Part shown: positions 24,468 through 33,159 of the stretch, piece by piece
How positions within the stretch are numbered: position 1 is the first letter of the stretch
Layout: every line of letters starts with the position of its first letter
Source of the DNA: Candidatus Alistipes intestinipullorum
Lineage (GTDB): Bacteria > Bacteroidota > Bacteroidia > Bacteroidales > Rikenellaceae
Length of the DNA stretch: 64,000 bases
Direction: 5' to 3'
NCBI GenBank assembly: GCA_019113885.1
Contig: DXGO01000121.1
Span: 1 to 64,000 of the forward strand
Translations under genes and position numbers: made by a program
Notes under the pieces: model-generated
What the model was told of the DNA's origin: nothing
Database searches by the model: none
Seen by the model: only the letters and a program-made list of their open reading frames with translations

Positions 24468-24499
24468 AATGTCCCCGGAGCGATCGCTCCGGGGACATT
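24468..24499. terminator. Perfect 32-bp palindrome, bidirectional terminator
   Basis: AATGTCCCCGGAGCGATCGCTCCGGGGACATT, then TTT, between convergent CDSs. Confidence 0.85.
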
Positions 24500-24501
24500 T
24501 T

Positions 24502-24903
24502 TCAGGATACGAAGAGTTCCCACCCTTTTGTGACCTCACGGAAGTCGGCCGCCACGCCGTTCTCGACCCGCGAGATGGCTGCCGCCACGGGAATCATCGT
24601 CCGTGCGTCGCGCGTGTCGAGCGCCTCGTCGGGGTCGATGCCCGTGTCGGAGGCCACGGCGCGGATGTAGTTGTCGGTGTGGTTTTCCGAGGGAGGCGCC
24701 CAGCGCGAGATCATGCCGCGCAGGGTGTCGAGCCCGTAGCGCCGCCGGTAGGTGTCCAGCAGCACGAAGATCGCCCGGTAACCCCACGCCAGGGTCTCGA
24801 ACTGCTTGAAGGCGGGGTCGCGTGACGGACGCACCTCGCCGCGGTAGCGGACCTTGGCCCGGCGGATGTTGCCGGGGTTGTTGTTCGACAGGCCCCTACT
24901 CAT
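24502..24903 (-). CDS. Phage structural protein P5/lysozyme-like protein
   Basis: 133 aa; MSRGLSNNNPGNIRRAKVRYRGE and FKQFETLAWGYRAIFVLLDTYRRRYG match the P5-like family start. Confidence 0.8.
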   Translation of the reverse strand: MSRGLSNNNPGNIRRAKVRYRGEVRPSRDPAFKQFETLAWGYRAIFVLLDTYRRRYGLDTLRGMISRWAPPSENHTDNYIRAVASDTGIDPDEALDTRDARTMIPVAAAISRVENGVAADFREVTKGWELFVS

Positions 24904-25321
24904 TGCCCACCTCCTTTCGGATGCGGCGGTGGACGAAACGTCGCATCCACCGGAAGAGCGGGGCGTCGGAGAGCTGTGCGGCGTTCTCGAGGAATGACCA
25001 CAACTCCACGCCGCAGGTGAATCCCGCGAGCAGCCGTGCGAGGTTGAGGTGCATGAAGTCGAGGATACAGGCGTCGATGAGCCAGGCCATGGCGATGGCC
25101 GTTACCGCGAGGGCAAGCTTGAGCACCGTGCGCCAGGCTTTGCAACTTTCGAAATACCAGGGTCTTCCGTCATGTCGTGCGGCGGCACGGTCAGCGGCGA
25201 CCCCCGAGAGGAAGTCGACGGCGATGAAGAGCATCGTCGTGATGACCAGCGGCCCGATCGGGGCAAACAGCGCGGCGACACCCGCCGCCGCGCCGCTAAC
25301 GAATCTGTACAAAGCCTCCAT
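24896..25321 (-). CDS. Phage holin-like protein
   Basis: 2-3 TM helices plus FIAVDFLSGVAADRAA pattern of phage holin family; start MEALYRF. Confidence 0.7.
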   Translation of the reverse strand: MEALYRFVSGAAAGVAALFAPIGPLVITTMLFIAVDFLSGVAADRAAARHDGRPWYFESCKAWRTVLKLALAVTAIAMAWLIDACILDFMHLNLARLLAGFTCGVELWSFLENAAQLSDAPLFRWMRRFVHRRIRKEVGNE

Positions 25322-25769
25322 CGGTCGTACAGCGGTTGAGGATGTCACGGGCGGGGTCGTATTCGGGGTATTCGCTCCGGTGGGTGCGAAGATGGAGGGC
25401 GGCGCGGCGCAGCAGGGCCCGGGCTTCGGCCCGCAGCGTGCGCAGGAGGTCGCGGCGGGCATCGTCGCCGGCCGGCTGTCCCGAGTCGGATTTCGGGGCC
25501 GTCGTGCCGCATTGGCCCGTGCGGAGGTCGAGCCGCGGCTGGAGCGACAGCCGAGTGAAGAGGGCTGCGGGGGCGGCGAGGTAGTCGGCGCGGAAGTCGT
25601 CGTATGCGCCGCCGAGGAGTTTTTCGTAGAGTGCCGTTCCGATGACCGGGACGATGTACCGTTGTTCGGCGGCGGCGATGTCGGCCTCGGTGACGGTGTC
25701 GGTCGGAAGGTAGGCGCCTTCGGCGAAGGCGAGTTTGAGAACTTGGAGGGGTGTGACGAGGGTATTCAT
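25296..25769 (-). CDS. DUF6712-like phage protein (probable head-tail connector)
   Basis: 157 aa; TEADIAAAEQRYIVPVIGTALYEKLL; position downstream of portal. Confidence 0.65.
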   Translation of the reverse strand: MNTLVTPLQVLKLAFAEGAYLPTDTVTEADIAAAEQRYIVPVIGTALYEKLLGGAYDDFRADYLAAPAALFTRLSLQPRLDLRTGQCGTTAPKSDSGQPAGDDARRDLLRTLRAEARALLRRAALHLRTHRSEYPEYDPARDILNRCTTDGGFVQIR

Positions 25770-25829
25770 AAGCGAAGGGAGTGGAAGAGGAATGATTGGA
25801 ATGCGATGGACGGTAGCGGTTTGTCGGGA

Positions 25830-27056
25830 TTACCCGATGCTCTGGATGTTGTACTTGGTGATCTCCGAGAGGAATGCCTGCTGCCGCGGGTCTTCCGGGT
25901 CGTAGTCGAGTCCGTCGGCCTTGCGGGCCTCCCAGACCTTCATGTAGATGGGTTTCGAACGGGTTGGCGGGCGGTTGACGATCTGCAGCGACGAGGCGTC
26001 GAGGTGAAGAATCGAGGCGATGACGTTGCGGATCGGCTCGGTGAGTTCGGCCTGTTCGGCGAGGATCACGGTATTGAGTGCCACCTCGTATTCATGCAGG
26101 ATGCGTTCAGCGCTGAAACCTCCGGAGTATTCGAGCCCGCTGAGCGTGCGGAACCACGAATGCGCGACGACGATGTCGCCCACGGCCTGTTCGTGGAGCG
26201 TGTGCCAGTCGCCCTCGTTCTTCGCCTCGATGGGGATGAAGCGGGAGTTGTCGTCGTCGGCGCCGTCGCGGATGACGAACATCACCTGCCCGGGGCTTCC
26301 GGCGAACTTCTGCTCGGCGAGGCGCGCGATGCGTTCGGCGTCGGCCTCGTTGTCGACCGACGAGTCGAGCATCATCACCCCCGAGGGCTGGAACGAATTG
26401 TCCAGCCGCGAGATGTTCCAGCGGTCGGTCTTGTAGGCGATGGCCGAGACGCCGAATCCGGCGATGTAGGGCGGTACGCCGTAGTGCTCGAACATCGGCT
26501 CGTAGTCCTTGTAATGGATCATCGACCGCAGGGTGCCGTCGGGCTGCTCCTCGAACAGCGGGTAGAGCGGCAGGGTCACGGACTCTTCGATTTTGAACGC
26601 CGTCCAGTCGTGGTGCAGCAGAATGTGCTGCGCATCGCGGCTTACGCGGCATCGCGAGGCATCCTGGTGGTAGAGCGAGAGGAAGGCATGGTCGGGGGCA
26701 GTGATGATTTCGAGGAAGGCATTCCCGAAGAGGGCCTTATCAAGAGCCAGTTTGTTGAGTACCTGGCGCAGGCTCTCGCCCTCTCCGTTTACCCGGCGCA
26801 GGAAGGCCGCCAAAGCTGGGTTTCCGGCTTCGTCGCACGTACACCCTTTGCCCGAGATGTAGTCGGCCTTGTCGTTGATGATGCGCCGGTGTGTGGTCGA
26901 GCGCCGTGCCATGAGCGCCAGGGCGGCCGGGAAGAGGTTGTCGTCGCCCCAGCGCCAGAAGCGGTCGTCCTCGACCCGCCGGGTGCCGAGCTGGATGTAA
27001 GGGTCCGTGCGGTCGGAGACCCTGACGGCGGGTTTGAATTTCGGAATCTTCTCCAT
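25830..27056 (-). CDS. Phage portal protein
   Basis: 409 aa; WGDDNLFPAALALMARRSTTHRRIINDKADYISGKG, LNKLALDKALFGNAFLEII, portal-like. Confidence 0.78.
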   Translation of the reverse strand: MEKIPKFKPAVRVSDRTDPYIQLGTRRVEDDRFWRWGDDNLFPAALALMARRSTTHRRIINDKADYISGKGCTCDEAGNPALAAFLRRVNGEGESLRQVLNKLALDKALFGNAFLEIITAPDHAFLSLYHQDASRCRVSRDAQHILLHHDWTAFKIEESVTLPLYPLFEEQPDGTLRSMIHYKDYEPMFEHYGVPPYIAGFGVSAIAYKTDRWNISRLDNSFQPSGVMMLDSSVDNEADAERIARLAEQKFAGSPGQVMFVIRDGADDDNSRFIPIEAKNEGDWHTLHEQAVGDIVVAHSWFRTLSGLEYSGGFSAERILHEYEVALNTVILAEQAELTEPIRNVIASILHLDASSLQIVNRPPTRSKPIYMKVWEARKADGLDYDPEDPRQQAFLSEITKYNIQSIG

Positions 27057-27121
27057 TTTCGGTTGCGTGGTTTTGGCGGAGGCCGCTTCTCGAGGGAGCG
27101 GCCTCCGGGGTTGTACGATGG

Positions 27122-28102
27122 TTAGACGGTTTTGTAGGCGTATGCAATCAGCAGCGGATCGAGCAGCTCGCATCCGGCCATGAAGACGGCCCGCTGGCGG
27201 TTCTCCATCTCGTCGGGGTTGTACCACATGCGAACCTCGTTGCCGGGCATGTCGGCGGTATTGACCGCGAGGATGAGGTTGCGGCGGTCGGTGAGGAAAC
27301 AGAACGTCTGGTGATAGGAGGTGGTGGTGAGGTAGTTCTCGAGGTGCAGGTCGATGACCGGGATGCCGTGGTAGGCGAGTTGCTGACGGCCGTTCATCGC
27401 TTCGGAGTATGCCGAATCGACGCCTTTTGAGTCGAGGTACTTCTCGTAGAGCCGATAGATGTCCGAGGAGACGAAATAGGCCAGCTGTCCCTGCGACTTG
27501 TTGTCGTGCACCCGAGGGTTGGAGTTCTCCCAGAGGTGGTCGAAGAGTGTGGCGACGTAGGCCGGGTCTTCGAGGTCGGTGCCCTGGAAGGAGGTGTTGT
27601 ACAGCCGTTCGTTGTCGGCGCCGTCCTCGATGAGCTTGAGGAACCCGTCGAAGGTGTTGTATCCCGATTCCGATGCGGAGTCTCCGATCCACATCGTCAC
27701 ACGGATGTTTTCGGCCAGCGCCTGACGGAAGAGTGTCGTCTCGGCCTGTTCGAGTTCGGTTCCCGTCAGGTCGTCCATGTTTGCGCCGATCAGCGCTGCG
27801 ACCTTTTCGTAGACCATCGAGAAATAGTCGGCTGCCGAGAAGCCTATTTCGGCTTTTACGCGGCTGAGCTGAATGGCCTTTTCGGTCTTGGTGGCGGCTT
27901 TCCCGCCGGTCCATCCCGAGGCGGTGTATTTCTGCAGCAGGTTGCGGCCTCCGTCCCAAAGCTGGACGTAGGTGGGCTGCGGCATGTTGTAGAGGACGCG
28001 TACGCCGAGTTCGCGGGCCGATTCGCCCGTGAGCATGGGACGGAAGAAGATGTTTTCCAGGTCGGAGCCGGTGTACTGTTTGGCTTGTTCGATGTAGTTC
28101 AT
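27122..28102 (-). CDS. Phage major capsid protein (probable)
   Basis: 326 aa; typical length and position between prohead protease and portal; no signal peptide; HK97-like fold not proven. Confidence 0.65.
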   Translation of the reverse strand: MNYIEQAKQYTGSDLENIFFRPMLTGESARELGVRVLYNMPQPTYVQLWDGGRNLLQKYTASGWTGGKAATKTEKAIQLSRVKAEIGFSAADYFSMVYEKVAALIGANMDDLTGTELEQAETTLFRQALAENIRVTMWIGDSASESGYNTFDGFLKLIEDGADNERLYNTSFQGTDLEDPAYVATLFDHLWENSNPRVHDNKSQGQLAYFVSSDIYRLYEKYLDSKGVDSAYSEAMNGRQQLAYHGIPVIDLHLENYLTTTSYHQTFCFLTDRRNLILAVNTADMPGNEVRMWYNPDEMENRQRAVFMAGCELLDPLLIAYAYKTV

Positions 28103-28178
28103 GGTGTTTGTGTTTGATAAGGGGTGAATGGAATGGTGGGAGCAGTCCCGGGGAGCAGCCTTTCGGCCGTTTCGGCAC

Positions 28179-29057
28179 TTACTCGGATTTTCGGAAATGT
28201 TTGACGTCTTCGGCGTAGGCGCGTTCGTTGGCCGAACGGATCGTGTCGCCGTAGGAGGGGTCCTCGCAGGGCTTCGTCCGCGAGGGGAGCACCCGGCATC
28301 GGGCCTCTTCGGCGGCCAGGGCCGAACGCCACAGCGATTGCGGCAGGTCGCTGTCGAAATGGAGGATATTGCGGTCGGGTTCCTGGGGGCACGCTTTTTT
28401 CAGCCCCATGCGGGCCAGCAGGCGGCTCCATCCGTTCGCGAGGTTCCGGGTCGGGATGCCGTTGCGTCCCTCGGCGCGGTCGATGATGCGGTCGGCAAGT
28501 CCTGCGGCGAGGGCCTCTTCGGGCGAGAGCCATCGTCCGTTGCCGTTGTTCTCGGCCATCAGGGCTTCGAACTCCCCGACGGGGCGTCCCGACCGGGCGG
28601 CATAGACGCCTGCGATGCGTGCGTCGGTCTGGCGCAGGAGTTCGATCTTCGAGGCCATTTCGGAGGCGTTGCCTTCGGCTGCGCAGATGGCGTTGTGAAT
28701 CAGGTAGAGGGCGTTTGCCGAGATTTCGCGGCAACCCTCGCTCGCGGCCTGGGCGATGATCGTCGCTGCCGAGGCCGTGTACCCGTAACAGCGGGTCGTG
28801 ATGCGGGCCGGCAGTTGCCGCAGGGCGTCGTGAATCAACAAGGCGTCGTTGACGTCGCCGCCCGTCGAGCGGATGTTGACGACGATCTCTTCGGCGTCGA
28901 TTTCGGCGATGCGGCGCAGCGTGTCGCGGAATCTCTCGTAGGTGGCCACGCGTGCGTCGGGGTCGTCGAACTGCCACTCCTCGGGGATGCCGATGGTCCC
29001 TTCGATGTCGATCTGGCAGCGGCCGTCCGCATGGTCGATTAGAATGTCTGATTTCAT
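28179..29057 (-). CDS. ClpP-like (S14/S49) phage head maturation protease
   Basis: EIVVNIRSTGGDVNDALLIHDAL, GYTASAATIIAQAA (Ser nucleophile), NALYLIHNAICAAEGNASEM. Confidence 0.87.
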   Translation of the reverse strand: MKSDILIDHADGRCQIDIEGTIGIPEEWQFDDPDARVATYERFRDTLRRIAEIDAEEIVVNIRSTGGDVNDALLIHDALRQLPARITTRCYGYTASAATIIAQAASEGCREISANALYLIHNAICAAEGNASEMASKIELLRQTDARIAGVYAARSGRPVGEFEALMAENNGNGRWLSPEEALAAGLADRIIDRAEGRNGIPTRNLANGWSRLLARMGLKKACPQEPDRNILHFDSDLPQSLWRSALAAEEARCRVLPSRTKPCEDPSYGDTIRSANERAYAEDVKHFRKSE

Positions 29058-29082
29058 GGTTTTGGGTGTGTGGTGGGTGGGA

Positions 29083-29340
29083 TCAGTTTGTTTTTTCGTA
29101 AAAAGCGTTGCGGGCCTTTTCGTAGGAGCAGCAGTACGTGAGGGCGGCAGCCTCGAATGCCTCGCAGCGGGGGATGCCCTGTCGTTGGAGCCGTTCGATT
29201 TCGTGGCGGATGGCCGACCGTTCGCACCGGCGGCGGTCGATGAATCCGACCTCGAACAGCTTCCGGACGGCCTCCTCGGGCGTAAGTCCGTGGATTTCGC
29301 GGAGCGCTGTCTCCGCGAGCAGTTCGTCGAGACGGGTCAT
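29083..29340 (-). CDS. Small hypothetical protein of the phage-like operon
   Basis: 85 aa; charged and helical; tightly packed between neighbouring operon genes. Confidence 0.55.
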   Translation of the reverse strand: MTRLDELLAETALREIHGLTPEEAVRKLFEVGFIDRRRCERSAIRHEIERLQRQGIPRCEAFEAAALTYCCSYEKARNAFYEKTN

Positions 29341-29344
29341 GGGG

Positions 29345-31708
29345 CTAATCTTCGATCAGTCGGTTGAACGTACAGCGCACGGTTCCCTTCCGGGGATCGT
29401 AATCGTCGATGCTCTCGAGCGTGGCGCGTACCACGCCGGCGCCGGTGTCGATGCGGAACCGGGAGCGGATGTCGGGAACCCCGGTGCCGGGGGAGAAGAG
29501 CGCCTCGAATTCGTGCGGCGCGATGCGCAGCGAGAGGGTGATGCGTTGCCGTGTGGCGTCGCGCCGGGCGTCGCGGTCGTGGAAGCGGTGAAGCCCCTGT
29601 GCGGCGTCACGATCCTCGAAACAAAGCGTGAACGGCTCCATGTCGCTGTCCCCGGCGAAATGGAACGCTGCGAGCGGATAGGAGGCCTGTCCCCAGGGAT
29701 ACCCCCAGCGCTGTCCGTCGGGCAGCGGGTGCAGCCCGGCATAGCGGACGATGCGGGGTGTGAAATTGGTCCCGTCCTCCTCGGCGTTGTCCCGGTCTCC
29801 GACCTGGGGAATGAGGGCCGCCGGGGCGTTGAGATAGCGGCCTGCGGCGTTGAGTGTCGGGCGGAAGAGCGGGTTGCGGAGGGTCTCCTCGCCCATCAGG
29901 GAGGCGTAGGAGTCCGCCGTGAAACTCCACGCTCCGAAGGGCTCCTCGGACTCGGCGTCGAGCCGTGCCACGGGACCGTCCCCCTCCTGGTAACACCACG
30001 TACGCACCTCGTGGGTCTGGGTGACGAGTTCCAGCCGCTCGACCGGCTGCGAGAAGTCCGTGCGGTCGCTCCAGTCGGCATCGACTCCGGCGCCGAAGAA
30101 TGTCTCTGCGGGCTCGATCCAGACGGTCCGCGTGGCCTCCTCGGTAAAGATGCGGAGGTTGAACAGGTGGATCAGCGCTTCCAGTACCTCGGCCTGCCGG
30201 ATGCTGTGGCGGGCGACATCCTCGAAGACGATGTTCGACCCGAACCCCGGGCCCGAGAGGAACCGCGGCCGCAGTGAACACTCCTTGTGGAGGGTCAGCG
30301 TCATTCCCTCTTCGGCGCCTCCGAAATAGATGAGGTTGAAGTATTTGGGCGATGTCGGGGTGATGATCTCCGCGACTGTCCGCAGCCGTACCTCGACGGT
30401 TGTCTGCCCGGTTTCGGCGATGTAGCCGTTGTAGAGGGCCCAGTCCCCGGCGTAGGCGGTCCACTGCCCGGCGGTGTAGACCTGCAACTGCGGAGCCGCG
30501 ACAGTTCCGTCGGAAGGGGTCGTCACCTGGGCCGAGCGTGCCGCAAACGAGCTCCAGACCGTATTCGCCACTCCGTTGCGGGTGTATACCAGCCGGTATT
30601 GCGCCCCCTCCGCATGGTCGAACACGATGACCCGATAGATGAAGTTCGGGACGATTTCGTCGCGCAGGTCCTGGTAGCGGTTCGCCAGTTCGAATCGGAA
30701 CTCCGACCCCGGGCCGAGGTAGATCGTGTCGAAACCCCGGAGGCGGGTGCGGGAGAGGATGCGGTGCTGGGTGGTGTACTTCAGGTAGTATTCGAACCCG
30801 GCGCTCACCTCGGTCGGCGGCGTGAAGAGAATCCTGCCGTAGCTGTCCGTCGAGAAGCAGTTCCCGTTGTTGTAGAGCCCGCTGACAGCCACGCCGTCCT
30901 CGTCGATGCTCCCGGAGGTCGCCGTGTCGACGATGTTTCCCACGGTGTTGGCCACGGCGTTGGGGTTCGCCGAGACGCGTCCCACCTCGTTGGCTGCGGC
31001 TGTGGCGGATTCCAGGCGGCGGGCTGAGAATCCCATGCGGTTGACGGCCGCCGTGGTGTCGCGCGAGGCGTAGGCGCCGCTCATGTAGAGCGAACGGAAG
31101 AACTCCGACTGGAGGAATTCGCTGCGGATGCGGTATCCGGCCTCGTCGAACATGGTCTCGAGCAGCGTGGCGAGGTGCAGGAAAGGGTGGTAGTCGTCCA
31201 CCGAGAGCAGCCGTTCGGCCGGCAGCAGGTCCGTCGAGCTGTTCTGCTGTTCGTACTCGTCGCGCAGGATCGGGAAGAACTTCACCGGCTCGTCGTTGGT
31301 CCAGCTTTCGACGATCGTCGTCGGGGTCAGCGTCCCGCTCCATGCTACGCCGAGCGTGTTGAGCATCCTCCGGGCGATGTTTTCGGCCCACCCGGCCCCG
31401 CCGTCACGTATTTCGATCCGATATCCCTCGTCGGTCGAGGCGAGCAGGCGGACCGTCCCTTCGAGGAGTGTGGCTCCGTCGTCCGACAGTGTGGCCGTGT
31501 GGAGCGAGTCGTTGAAGCGCACGGCGGCCTGGGAATCGGCCGCGTCGTTCAATACCAGATCGTTGCGCGGCGTGCAGGGGATGGTGATTCGGAGCGAACG
31601 GCCTTCGCGGCAGGCATCCGGATCGGAGAGCTTCGCGGCGTCGTAGCCGGGGACGGCGCAATGCTCCGTGCCGAGGTCGCACGGCATTCGGTCGATCGTC
31701 AGTTCCAT
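29345..31708 (-). CDS. Large phage tail-hub/minor structural-like protein
   Basis: 787 aa; no signal peptide; ..FLHLATLLETMFDEAGYRIRSEFL resembles Bacteroidetes siphophage tail-tip proteins; overlaps upstream gene. Confidence 0.55.
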   Translation of the reverse strand: MELTIDRMPCDLGTEHCAVPGYDAAKLSDPDACREGRSLRITIPCTPRNDLVLNDAADSQAAVRFNDSLHTATLSDDGATLLEGTVRLLASTDEGYRIEIRDGGAGWAENIARRMLNTLGVAWSGTLTPTTIVESWTNDEPVKFFPILRDEYEQQNSSTDLLPAERLLSVDDYHPFLHLATLLETMFDEAGYRIRSEFLQSEFFRSLYMSGAYASRDTTAAVNRMGFSARRLESATAAANEVGRVSANPNAVANTVGNIVDTATSGSIDEDGVAVSGLYNNGNCFSTDSYGRILFTPPTEVSAGFEYYLKYTTQHRILSRTRLRGFDTIYLGPGSEFRFELANRYQDLRDEIVPNFIYRVIVFDHAEGAQYRLVYTRNGVANTVWSSFAARSAQVTTPSDGTVAAPQLQVYTAGQWTAYAGDWALYNGYIAETGQTTVEVRLRTVAEIITPTSPKYFNLIYFGGAEEGMTLTLHKECSLRPRFLSGPGFGSNIVFEDVARHSIRQAEVLEALIHLFNLRIFTEEATRTVWIEPAETFFGAGVDADWSDRTDFSQPVERLELVTQTHEVRTWCYQEGDGPVARLDAESEEPFGAWSFTADSYASLMGEETLRNPLFRPTLNAAGRYLNAPAALIPQVGDRDNAEEDGTNFTPRIVRYAGLHPLPDGQRWGYPWGQASYPLAAFHFAGDSDMEPFTLCFEDRDAAQGLHRFHDRDARRDATRQRITLSLRIAPHEFEALFSPGTGVPDIRSRFRIDTGAGVVRATLESIDDYDPRKGTVRCTFNRLIED

Positions 31709-32670
31709 GAGGCGGATGTTTTACGGGTGGAACGGAAGGCAATCTCCAGGCAGCACATCGCTCCGTGACGCAGGATCGTCGCCTCGTCGGTCGTAATGTC
31801 GACCGGTGTGTAGCCCTCCTCTTCGACGAGCCACACTTCGGGGGCGGCGATCACCCCGGCGAGCGCCTCCAGTACGCTGGTGGACTCGTAGGCCGACACA
31901 AGATGCGTTTCCCGTTCGGAGAGCCACGCGGTGACGACCGGGCCGTCGGCTCCGTAACCGCGGGTTTTGTCGACGCGCAACGTTGTTTCACGCACGACCG
32001 GGAAGGAGTAGTGTTCGATCGACCCGACGTGGCTGCGCCAGGCGAGCCGGACCGCCTCTTCACGGGCCGGGACGAGCGTGTAGACCACCTGCCCGCACAC
32101 GCCGGCATCGACGGTGATCGTCTCGGCGCCGGGGAAATCGCGCGTATCGAGGCGGAAAGGCTGAAGGCCGCTGTTCGACGACCTGTAGTGCTGCGCCGAG
32201 GTCGAATCCGGGCCGACGGCCGTGACGGTTACCGCGAAGGCGGCCTCGGAGAAGATCGTCAGTTCATCGCAGGCTCCTTCGGGGATGAGCCGTTCGCGGG
32301 GCATGGTGGTGAGCAGCGAGGGGCTGCTTGCCGGGGAGTCTCCGGGTAGAAATACCCGGGATGAGGAGGTTGCGACGACGGCTTCGTCGTCGGAAAGGAA
32401 GGCCTTGACCTGAGCTGTTGCACAGCGGCCTGCGGAGTCGACGAATCCCGTGCCGCCTTGCCGCGGTTCGAACCGGAGTCCTCTGCGCAGTGCGGGAGCG
32501 ATGTCGAACGAAGCCTCGGCGACGGAGGCGAAACGCTTGGCTGCCAATACGGAACTGTCCGAGGGGTCGATGACCCGTACCTCGATGTCGGCAGCTGCCG
32601 TGTGCTTTACGGTGTAGAGGAGGGCGTCGCCGAGCGGGGAGTAATGTTGAGGGATTTGGGTAAACTGCAT
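31699..32670 (-). CDS. Hypothetical phage-like structural protein, first gene of operon
   Basis: 324 aa from MQFTQIPQHYSPLGDALLYTV; stop overlaps the start of the 787-aa gene by 10 nt. Confidence 0.55.
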   Translation of the reverse strand: MQFTQIPQHYSPLGDALLYTVKHTAAADIEVRVIDPSDSSVLAAKRFASVAEASFDIAPALRRGLRFEPRQGGTGFVDSAGRCATAQVKAFLSDDEAVVATSSSRVFLPGDSPASSPSLLTTMPRERLIPEGACDELTIFSEAAFAVTVTAVGPDSTSAQHYRSSNSGLQPFRLDTRDFPGAETITVDAGVCGQVVYTLVPAREEAVRLAWRSHVGSIEHYSFPVVRETTLRVDKTRGYGADGPVVTAWLSERETHLVSAYESTSVLEALAGVIAAPEVWLVEEEGYTPVDITTDEATILRHGAMCCLEIAFRSTRKTSASWN

Positions 32671-32730
32671 GATGTTTGGAGGGTTGAGAATGGGAGAAGT
32701 GTTTGCCGATGGGCTGTTGTTTGTAGGGCA

Positions 32731-32869
32731 GCTGTCTGCCGAAGTCGCCGTTTGTCGGACCGTCGCTTGCCGGGCCCCCGGTGGTTGGGACTGCTGCTTG
32801 TTGGAGTTTCCGTTTGCCGGCCCCTTCCGGTGGTCGGGGCTGCTGTTCGCCGAAGTCCCCGGTTGCCGG
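32731..32869. repeat. Degenerate 28-nt GC-rich direct repeats (3 copies)
   Basis: GCTGTCTGCCGAAGTCGCCGTTTGTCGG (32731), GCTGCTTGTTGGAGTTTCCGTTTGCCGG (32793), GCTGTTCGCCGAAGTCCCCGGTTGCCGG (32842). Confidence 0.65.
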
Positions 32870-32952
32870 AGCAGCCGGAGGCGGAAACGGGAAGGAGAAG
32901 AAATCGGATTTTCAACGGCGGATGCCGTGCGGAGCCCGATCGGGCGACGGTC

Positions 32953-33071
32953 TGTTGATAACAGGATGAAAATTTGTTGAAAAGCGTTGATAACAATCCA
33001 CAAACTAATGGTTTTCAGATGCTACCATGTGTTGATAAATTGCGTGACCGGCGCCGGCCCGCTGTGGATTG
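32953..33071. promoter_or_regulatory. Cluster of DnaA-box-like motifs
   Basis: TGTTGATAA (32953), CGTTGATAA (32985), CAATCCACA (32994), TGTTGATAA (33030), TGTGGATTG (33063); 1-2 mismatches to TGTGNATAA/TTATNCACA. Confidence 0.45.
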
Positions 33072-33159
33072 CACGACAAATATACGTCGGCGACACCCCC
33101 TTTGTCAAGAGGTTGGTGCACTTTTTCCAGATTTTATGGAAAAACTTCGGGATTTTTCG

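Follow-up and report, generated by a model that had tools for sequence, protein, structure and literature searches.

Does a compact cluster of phage head genes on an Alistipes chromosome represent the remains of a prophage, or a particle system that its host has taken into service? The question bears on gene transfer agents (GTAs), of which few are known. The cluster lies on the minus strand of the window, a 64,000-nt stretch of contig DXGO01000121.1 from Candidatus Alistipes intestinipullorum (family Rikenellaceae), where the original prediction had pointed out a minimal phage-capsid operon with possible retained function. Here, we find that domestication of phage particle genes is well supported, and we give a probability of about two in three to an anciently domesticated, vertically inherited Rikenellaceae phage particle system, most likely GTA-like, that is encoded at two loci.

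Architecture of the operon

All nine of the tightly packed same-strand genes that had been predicted are present with open frames, with three overlapping junctions (10, 26, and 8 nt) and short gaps at the remainder. Their products are a head-maturation protease, a capsid, a portal, a DUF6712 protein, a holin, an endolysin, a hub-like protein, and two further proteins, and the palindrome that had been noted at one end is a strong hairpin. The features are as follows (all on the minus strand):

24468..24499, minus: terminator-like hairpin at the operon 3′ end, between convergent genes (−28.3 kcal/mol, z −6.6, 14-bp stem)
24502..24903, minus: endolysin/phage lysozyme-like protein, 133 aa (phrog_873, 1.4e-46)
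24896..25321, minus: holin, 141 aa, ATG at 25321 (PF05105, Phage_holin_4_1, 5.4e-11)
25296..25769, minus: DUF6712 protein, 157 aa (PF20459, 2.9e-9)
25830..27056, minus: portal, 408 aa, ATG at 27056 (PF04860, 2.1e-11; phrog_11226, 1.9e-23)
27122..28102, minus: capsid (major head), 326 aa (phrog_1623, 2.3e-8; phrog_212 "major head protein", 3.5e-4)
28179..29057, minus: ClpP-type head maturation protease, 292 aa (PF00574, 5.3e-27; phrog_94, 2.6e-41)
29083..29340, minus: small protein, 85 aa (phrog_12118, 0.0045)
29345..31708, minus: tail-hub-like protein, 787 aa (model fold, weak matches to hubs)
31699..32670, minus: predicted phage structural protein, 323 aa, ATG at 32670 (model and BFVD matches)
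32671..33108, minus: conserved 5′ leader (promoter-like motif and TTATCNACA boxes)
33122..33144, minus: palindrome TTTTTCCATAAAATCTGGAAAAA, candidate operator, just upstream of the promoter motif

The profile searches bear out the assignments made from the letters for the protease, capsid, portal, DUF6712 protein, and holin, and identify the protein that had been called P5-like as an endolysin. In about 105 full-length relatives of the protease, residues S96, H121, and D145 are conserved to at least 95%. The capsid gene occurs in 36 of 37 genus genomes (the window's genome counted in), and all 75 of 75 complete Alistipes loci contain the DUF6712 gene, a head–tail adaptor candidate by position only. 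For the 323- and 787-aa proteins, the Pfam/PHROG profile search gave no family match. The model of the former (pLDDT 93.6) gave only weak Ig-like matches in a fold search of the PDB, and matched BFVD entries with a TM of 0.84 and an E value of 1.1e-20, including proteins of Flavobacterium phage 23T, Nonlabens P12024S, and Polaribacter Leef_1; judged by its predicted fold, it is a phage structural protein of a kind found in Bacteroidota phages. The 787-aa model (pLDDT 91) resembles the hubs of MuSo2, Milano, and Mu gp44 and the lambda tail tip weakly, which hints at a tail-hub-like protein.

The predicted lack of DNA-handling genes holds as well: the vicinity of the operon showed no terminase or tape measure gene, nor an integrase or repressor. 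Within the window, the operon and its immediate flanks are free of integrase, replication, and repressor genes, and the window has no tRNA. Inspection by eye of the flanking ORFs at the fetched loci of relatives likewise revealed no integrase, replication, or repressor gene beside the operon. A tailocin, i.e., a tail without a head, was rejected because the head genes are present and neither tail tube nor tape measure was found in or near the operon.

Distribution and synteny

Relatives of the portal were detected in 97 of 101 Alistipes genomes (38/38 of high quality), almost always as a single copy, and in 131 of 150 Rikenellaceae genomes (95/99 of high quality; 17 of 22 genera), while in the order's other families only 4/244 genomes had one, at 26–39% identity. 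The gene order is identical in the 75 Alistipes loci with full flanks when the small third gene is left aside; the profile for this 85-aa gene is unreliable (spurious frames), so its counts were not used. Since these genes recur genus-wide in a fixed order, the operon is far beyond chance. It mostly occupies one chromosomal site in Alistipes, with mqnA and corA flanking it on the opposite strand in about 55 of the 75 loci. Exceptions are few: G066 lacks the large terminase described below and has a stop within the portal alignment, and the portal is absent from G169 and G226. In IMG/VR, the operon is absent except for short contigs that carry operon genes alone. Two contigs from human faecal phage records (MT838736 and MT838805) contain pieces of the operon, one of them also mqnA. 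They may stem from a Mexican study in which purified particles were sequenced, and we give them little weight as bacterial carry-over is possible.

Two sister genera (g32 and g38) have no full-length hub gene genome-wide, near-complete genomes included, and keep terminase, protease, capsid, portal, and DUF6712 genes clustered together, accompanied in g38 by an S24 gene. The loss fits packaging without delivery, and with the retained cluster it speaks for a domesticated head that has a role inside the cell or in defense (storage, antiphage capsid interference, or vesicle-like export) instead of DNA transfer. We consider that reading unlikely, as the holin and endolysin genes, kept in 64/75 and 68/75 Alistipes loci, respectively, point to lytic release.

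A terminase at a second locus

The search for an unlinked terminase, which the original prediction had called for, was successful. A solitary large terminase gene (TerL; phrog_38, 3.7e-86), mostly single copy, is present at a separate locus in 96/101 Alistipes genomes and in 134/150 genomes of the family (95/99 of high quality). Its PPQHGKS motif and nuclease acids are invariant in 38 alignment rows. TerL and portal occur together in 128 of the 150 family genomes, both are missing from 13, and nine have one only (Fisher's exact test, 7e-12 for all genomes and 0.007 for those of high quality). The broad terminase profile phrog_2, in the genus search, mostly found a single-copy gene of ~330 aa per genome that was taken as an unrelated ATPase and set aside.

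The second locus also holds a conserved 96-aa protein, and TerL is usually adjoined by a divergent CI/LexA-like S24 repressor (HTH and Peptidase_S24 domains). One sister genus has a small terminase at this locus too; in Alistipes, none was identified. In sister genera, TerL can be found closer to the head genes: it adjoins protease, capsid, portal, and DUF6712 genes at L231–L233, stands together with capsid, portal, and DUF6712 genes at L230, and lies at most 15 kb from the capsid genes at L236 and L237. The proposal of a satellite that uses a helper terminase is disfavored by this own terminase, by the lack of a nearby integrase, and by vertical inheritance, and a capsid-forming phage satellite in general was rejected on the same grounds together with the conserved site.

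Descent and selection

Distances between the portal, hub, and TerL proteins follow those of rpoB (r = 0.85–0.90 across the family, 0.88–0.93 within Alistipes), with 0/2000 permutations reaching the observed value, and each genus with multiple genomes forms one clade in the TerL tree. In the pairs measured, dN/dS was mostly 0.06–0.4 and never near 1 (0.08–0.23 for the endolysin), so that the relaxed selection named as a refutation was not encountered; the hub-like protein has diverged more rapidly than the portal. The operon is neither a decaying nor a recent prophage. Chance retention of a decaying remnant is most improbable: several phage functions are missing, and in one genome (G206) a transposase-like ORF sits between the first gene and the hub, but the frames are open in many species under the selection just described, active sites are conserved, and the unlinked TerL is co-conserved. 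A complete or recent prophage was rejected because integrase, replication, packaging, and tail genes are absent around the operon and the distribution is near-universal rather than patchy.

A probable parent module

A siphovirus-type prophage in one genome (G006:C31) has homologues of the operon genes in the order 323-aa homologue, hub, small gene, protease, capsid, an extra gene, portal, DUF6712, and holin. In addition, a tape measure gene separates the hub and small genes, TerS and TerL lie upstream, and an integrase-like gene is present, as are other genes downstream. Its 82-aa gene next to the tape measure occupies the same place as the 85-aa gene of the window, and its hub homologue alone matched phrog_33698. 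The common gene order reveals the origin of the operon from a siphophage-type module, and the prophage probably represents the parent module, still equipped with its tape measure and terminase. Its capsid, portal, and TerL are 45–58% identical to those of the window's genome. It was found in a single genome among those fetched, and is a divergent second copy, as G006 has also kept the domesticated operon. A sister strain in which the operon is part of a complete prophage, which would make it a deletion remnant, was not found.

The existence of this prophage and the phage origin of the module could also suggest repeated acquisition of prophages, or of a capsid-forming satellite, that share the module by coincidence. 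We regard this as very improbable given the mostly single copy, the mqnA/corA site of most Alistipes loci, the distances that track rpoB, the lack of an adjacent integrase, the operon-only contigs in IMG/VR, and the own terminase.

Leader and regulation

The leader, which had been described as unusual, combines a conserved promoter-like motif (TTGACA at 33103–33108 and TATATTTG at 33077–33084) with an array of TTATCNACA boxes (33030–33038 and 32953–32961 in the window). The promoter pattern is present in 62/90 leaders, and the boxes number 108 in forward orientation, against 1.6 expected from shuffles, and 4 in reverse. A TTTCC-GGAAA palindrome precedes the operon in 17/90 leaders. The box array suggested a replication origin, but the leader was rejected as the origin itself because the GC skew flips ~110 kb (G206) and ~80 kb (G216) away. 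Inspected by eye, the two loci have no obvious operator motif in common, and the structural promoter showed no copy of the S24 operator motif, so that their joint control is hypothetical.

Proposed function

The combination of synteny, selection, and an unlinked terminase supports retained function as a GTA-like or capsid particle. Features by which GTAs are recognized are found here: nine chromosomal structural and lysis genes without replication or integration genes, an own TerL with intact active-site motifs, vertical inheritance under selection across the taxon (presence, rpoB correlation, and dN/dS), and lysis genes for release in the operon. We propose that some signal would cause a few cells to turn on both loci; SOS-type cleavage of the S24 repressor is one possibility. 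The operon would provide the head (protease, capsid, portal, and adaptor candidate), the hub-like tip, and the lysis proteins, and the second locus TerL and the 96-aa protein beside the divergent repressor. The terminase would then load pieces of host DNA into the heads, cell lysis by holin and endolysin would free the particles, and delivery to other cells may follow. Because the tape measure was lost, the particles are expected to be tailless or very short-tailed.

Retained particle and lysis genes, the loss of long-tail genes, and the faster divergence of the hub-like protein would also suit a domesticated particle of a killing or sacrificial type, in which host DNA is packed but not delivered, as in PBSX, which packs random 13-kb pieces of host DNA and acts like a bacteriocin without transfer (PMC7667829). 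This is an unlikely reading, if a conceivable one, as killing by injection normally depends on a tail tube, of which none was found, and mere killing requires no conserved terminase.

We lean slightly towards regarding the system as the first GTA system of the Bacteroidota: near-universal in Rikenellaceae, divided over two loci with terminase and phage-type repressor apart from the head genes, and forming tailless or very short-tailed particles derived from a siphophage by loss of the tape measure. No earlier report of such a system in this phylum was found in the literature searched. If true, a family-wide system that includes Alistipes, a genus common in the gut, adds a phylum to the GTAs, offers a possible explanation for gene flow within Rikenellaceae, and has living genera that show a domestication series (with a linked or a separate terminase, and with the hub and the extra capsid–portal gene each retained or lost). 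The listing of such operons as viral contigs in virus catalogues is a warning. Because cultured Alistipes strains carry the system, the claim is directly testable. One of them is Alistipes sp. An66, the source of operon L131, which agrees in contig and position with G022, a genome that has TerL as well.

Comparison with known systems

The alphaproteobacterial RcGTA and CcGTA have siphovirus tails and TerL in the main cluster, whereas the Alistipes set lacks a tape measure. Going by their descriptions, they resemble it in that phage-like structural genes are passed on vertically, kept by selection, and spread over more than one locus, that packaging machinery is present, and that replication and integration genes are missing. 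PBSX of Bacillus subtilis likewise consists of chromosomal particle genes without self-propagation, and the portal matched its NCBI portal model (TIGR01540) at 2e-13, below the model's cut-off; unlike the Alistipes operon, in which neither tail tube nor tape measure was found, PBSX is long-tailed and kills relatives.

In the portion of the faecal particle study drawn on here, GTA packaging is described in Ruminococcaceae, Oscillospiraceae, and Christensenellaceae, and no event is named for Rikenellaceae despite their abundance in the samples, which counts against the GTA-like reading (PMC12946183). The same portion presents FpGTA, a GTA-like element in every Faecalibacterium genome examined and called the first GTA in the human gut microbiome, of which particles and packaged DNA of 8–9 kb were observed (PMC12946183). 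As described there (PMC12946183), FpGTA belongs to the Bacillota and has TerS and TerL with the head genes and lysis and fibre genes apart, whereas the system predicted for Alistipes, from another phylum, has its terminase apart. By description (PMC12946183), the two are alike in being divided over two separate operons in a gut anaerobe and in combining head, portal, terminase, and lysis genes, with no long tail seen.

Operon content, conservation and leader

The original prediction described nine intact genes on a single strand bounded by a strong palindrome, and both elements are borne out in the window: every frame is open, and the 3′ end of the operon is marked by a strong hairpin resembling a terminator. 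The features are:

24502-32670, minus strand: operon of nine open genes
32953-33038: one-strand array of TTATCNACA boxes, spacing often 55 and 22 bp, also present in the leaders of loci L034-L052 and L120-L199

Six of the nine genes matched phage families (ClpP-type head maturation protease, capsid-like protein, portal, DUF6712, holin, and endolysin). The family search returned no match for the two largest proteins (323 and 787 aa), and their structures were therefore modelled. The 323-aa model (pLDDT 93.6) resembles the structures predicted for many proteins of tailed phages (TM up to 0.84, E 1e-20), and several of these come from Bacteroidota phages. The 787-aa model (pLDDT 91) matches the Mu and Milano hubs and the lambda tail tip weakly, so its designation as a putative hub is a lead only.

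By its named relatives, the window's genome belongs to Alistipes (Rikenellaceae). The portal was found in 97 of 101 Alistipes genomes, including all 38 of high quality, and in 131 of 150 Rikenellaceae genomes (95/99 high-quality; 17 of 22 genera); of 244 genomes from other families in the order, 4 carried it, at 26–39% identity. The capsid was present in 36 of 37 genus genomes, the window's own included, with a second copy in one of these. Synteny is preserved: gene order was kept in the 75 Alistipes loci whose flanks are complete, excepting the small third gene (85 aa), which was left out of the comparison because its profile placed the gene unreliably. The genes mqnA and corA lie beside the operon on the opposite strand in about 55 of these loci. 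Short contigs catalogued as viral (L306-L311 from IMG/VR; phage records L032 and L033) contain the bacterial operon, one together with its chromosomal flank.

A promoter-like TTGACA-TATATTTG pair lies upstream of the operon in 62 of 90 leaders, followed downstream by TTATCNACA boxes similar to DnaA boxes (108 forward versus 1.6 expected; 4 reverse). The operon leader holds the sole close pair of these boxes in genomes G022 and G216, and the array may represent replication-linked control. GC skew in two genomes places the origin roughly 80–110 kb away, so the leader lies near the origin and is ruled out as the skew switch itself.

An unlinked terminase

When the window's own genome was searched for terminase families, the single match was a large terminase (TerL) on another contig, solitary among chromosomal genes; looking for an unlinked terminase was a check that the original prediction had proposed. 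Relatives of this TerL occur in 96 of 101 Alistipes genomes and in 134 of 150 family genomes (95/99 high-quality), with a second, more distant copy in a few. Its surroundings are mostly conserved and include a divergent CI/LexA-type HTH-S24 regulator as well as a 96-aa protein that belongs to no known family. In the sister genus g33, a small-terminase-like gene (phrog_309, 1.4e-7) sits between the 96-aa gene and TerL; UmuC/UmuD-like and uracil-DNA glycosylase-like ORFs, judged by eye, adjoin the locus (L234, L235) and would fit DNA-damage control.

TerL and portal occur together in 128 genomes, neither in 13, and only one in 9. Since the two loci are linked in sister genera (TerL adjoins the capsid, portal, and DUF6712 genes in g38 and g32, and lies within 15 kb of operon genes in g44), the solitary TerL is tied to the operon more strongly than by co-occurrence alone.

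Selection and descent

Estimates of dN/dS, proposed earlier as a check, were mostly 0.06–0.4 (range 0.01–0.53; Nei-Gojobori, ten species pairs) and lowest for the portal, high dS making them rough in some pairs. Portal, hub, and TerL distances correlated with those of rpoB (r 0.85–0.90 across the family, 0.88–0.93 within Alistipes; none of 2000 permutations as high); the capsid correlation was weaker family-wide (0.70) than within Alistipes (0.82). Every multi-genome genus formed one clade in the TerL tree, and a quick-method portal tree placed Alistipes in two weakly supported pieces. Across 38 rows, TerL shows no variation in its Walker A and nuclease residues, and conservation of the serine, histidine, and aspartate of the protease extends over about 105 rows; in g33 the protease match is limited to ORFs of about 100 aa.

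Decay is possible in g31, where TerL in one genome (G130, L264) and the portal in another (G149, L246) are each divided between two ORFs. In G206, a transposase-like 359-aa ORF, judged by eye, separates the first gene from the hub (L243:15445-16524), a candidate for early decay.

Origin and interpretation

One Alistipes genome carrying the domesticated operon, G006, also holds an intact-looking siphovirus-type prophage (L054 to L055; contig C31, about 18.9–54 kb). This ~35 kb element contains a second, divergent copy alongside an integrase-like gene, TerS, and TerL, and a tape measure separates the hub from the small gene; the operon equals its module minus terminase and tape measure. The window's clade lacks an extra ~150-aa gene that lies between capsid and portal in the prophage and in many lineages of Alistipes and its sister groups.

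Portal, capsid, protease, terminase, holin, and endolysin are kept, propagation genes are gone, and selection is intact; operon and TerL are therefore best explained as a gene-transfer-agent-like system, in which putative particles would pack DNA and be released by cell lysis. A head with another task is a less likely alternative, favoured by g38 and g32, in which TerL, protease, capsid, portal, and DUF6712 form a single cluster (L232; L230, L231, L233) and the genomes searched yielded no full-length hub at any position; this cluster is a head-only version. A particle that packs DNA yet kills, as PBSX does (PMC7667829), is also a less likely alternative.

Among the open-access titles, abstracts, and passages covered, none describes a gene transfer agent in Alistipes, Rikenellaceae, or Bacteroidota. 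The gene-transfer-agent-like system proposed here seems to have lost the tape measure, and the window's clade also the extra gene, which points to particles with very short tails or none. Such particles are reported for a Faecalibacterium element (PMC12946183).
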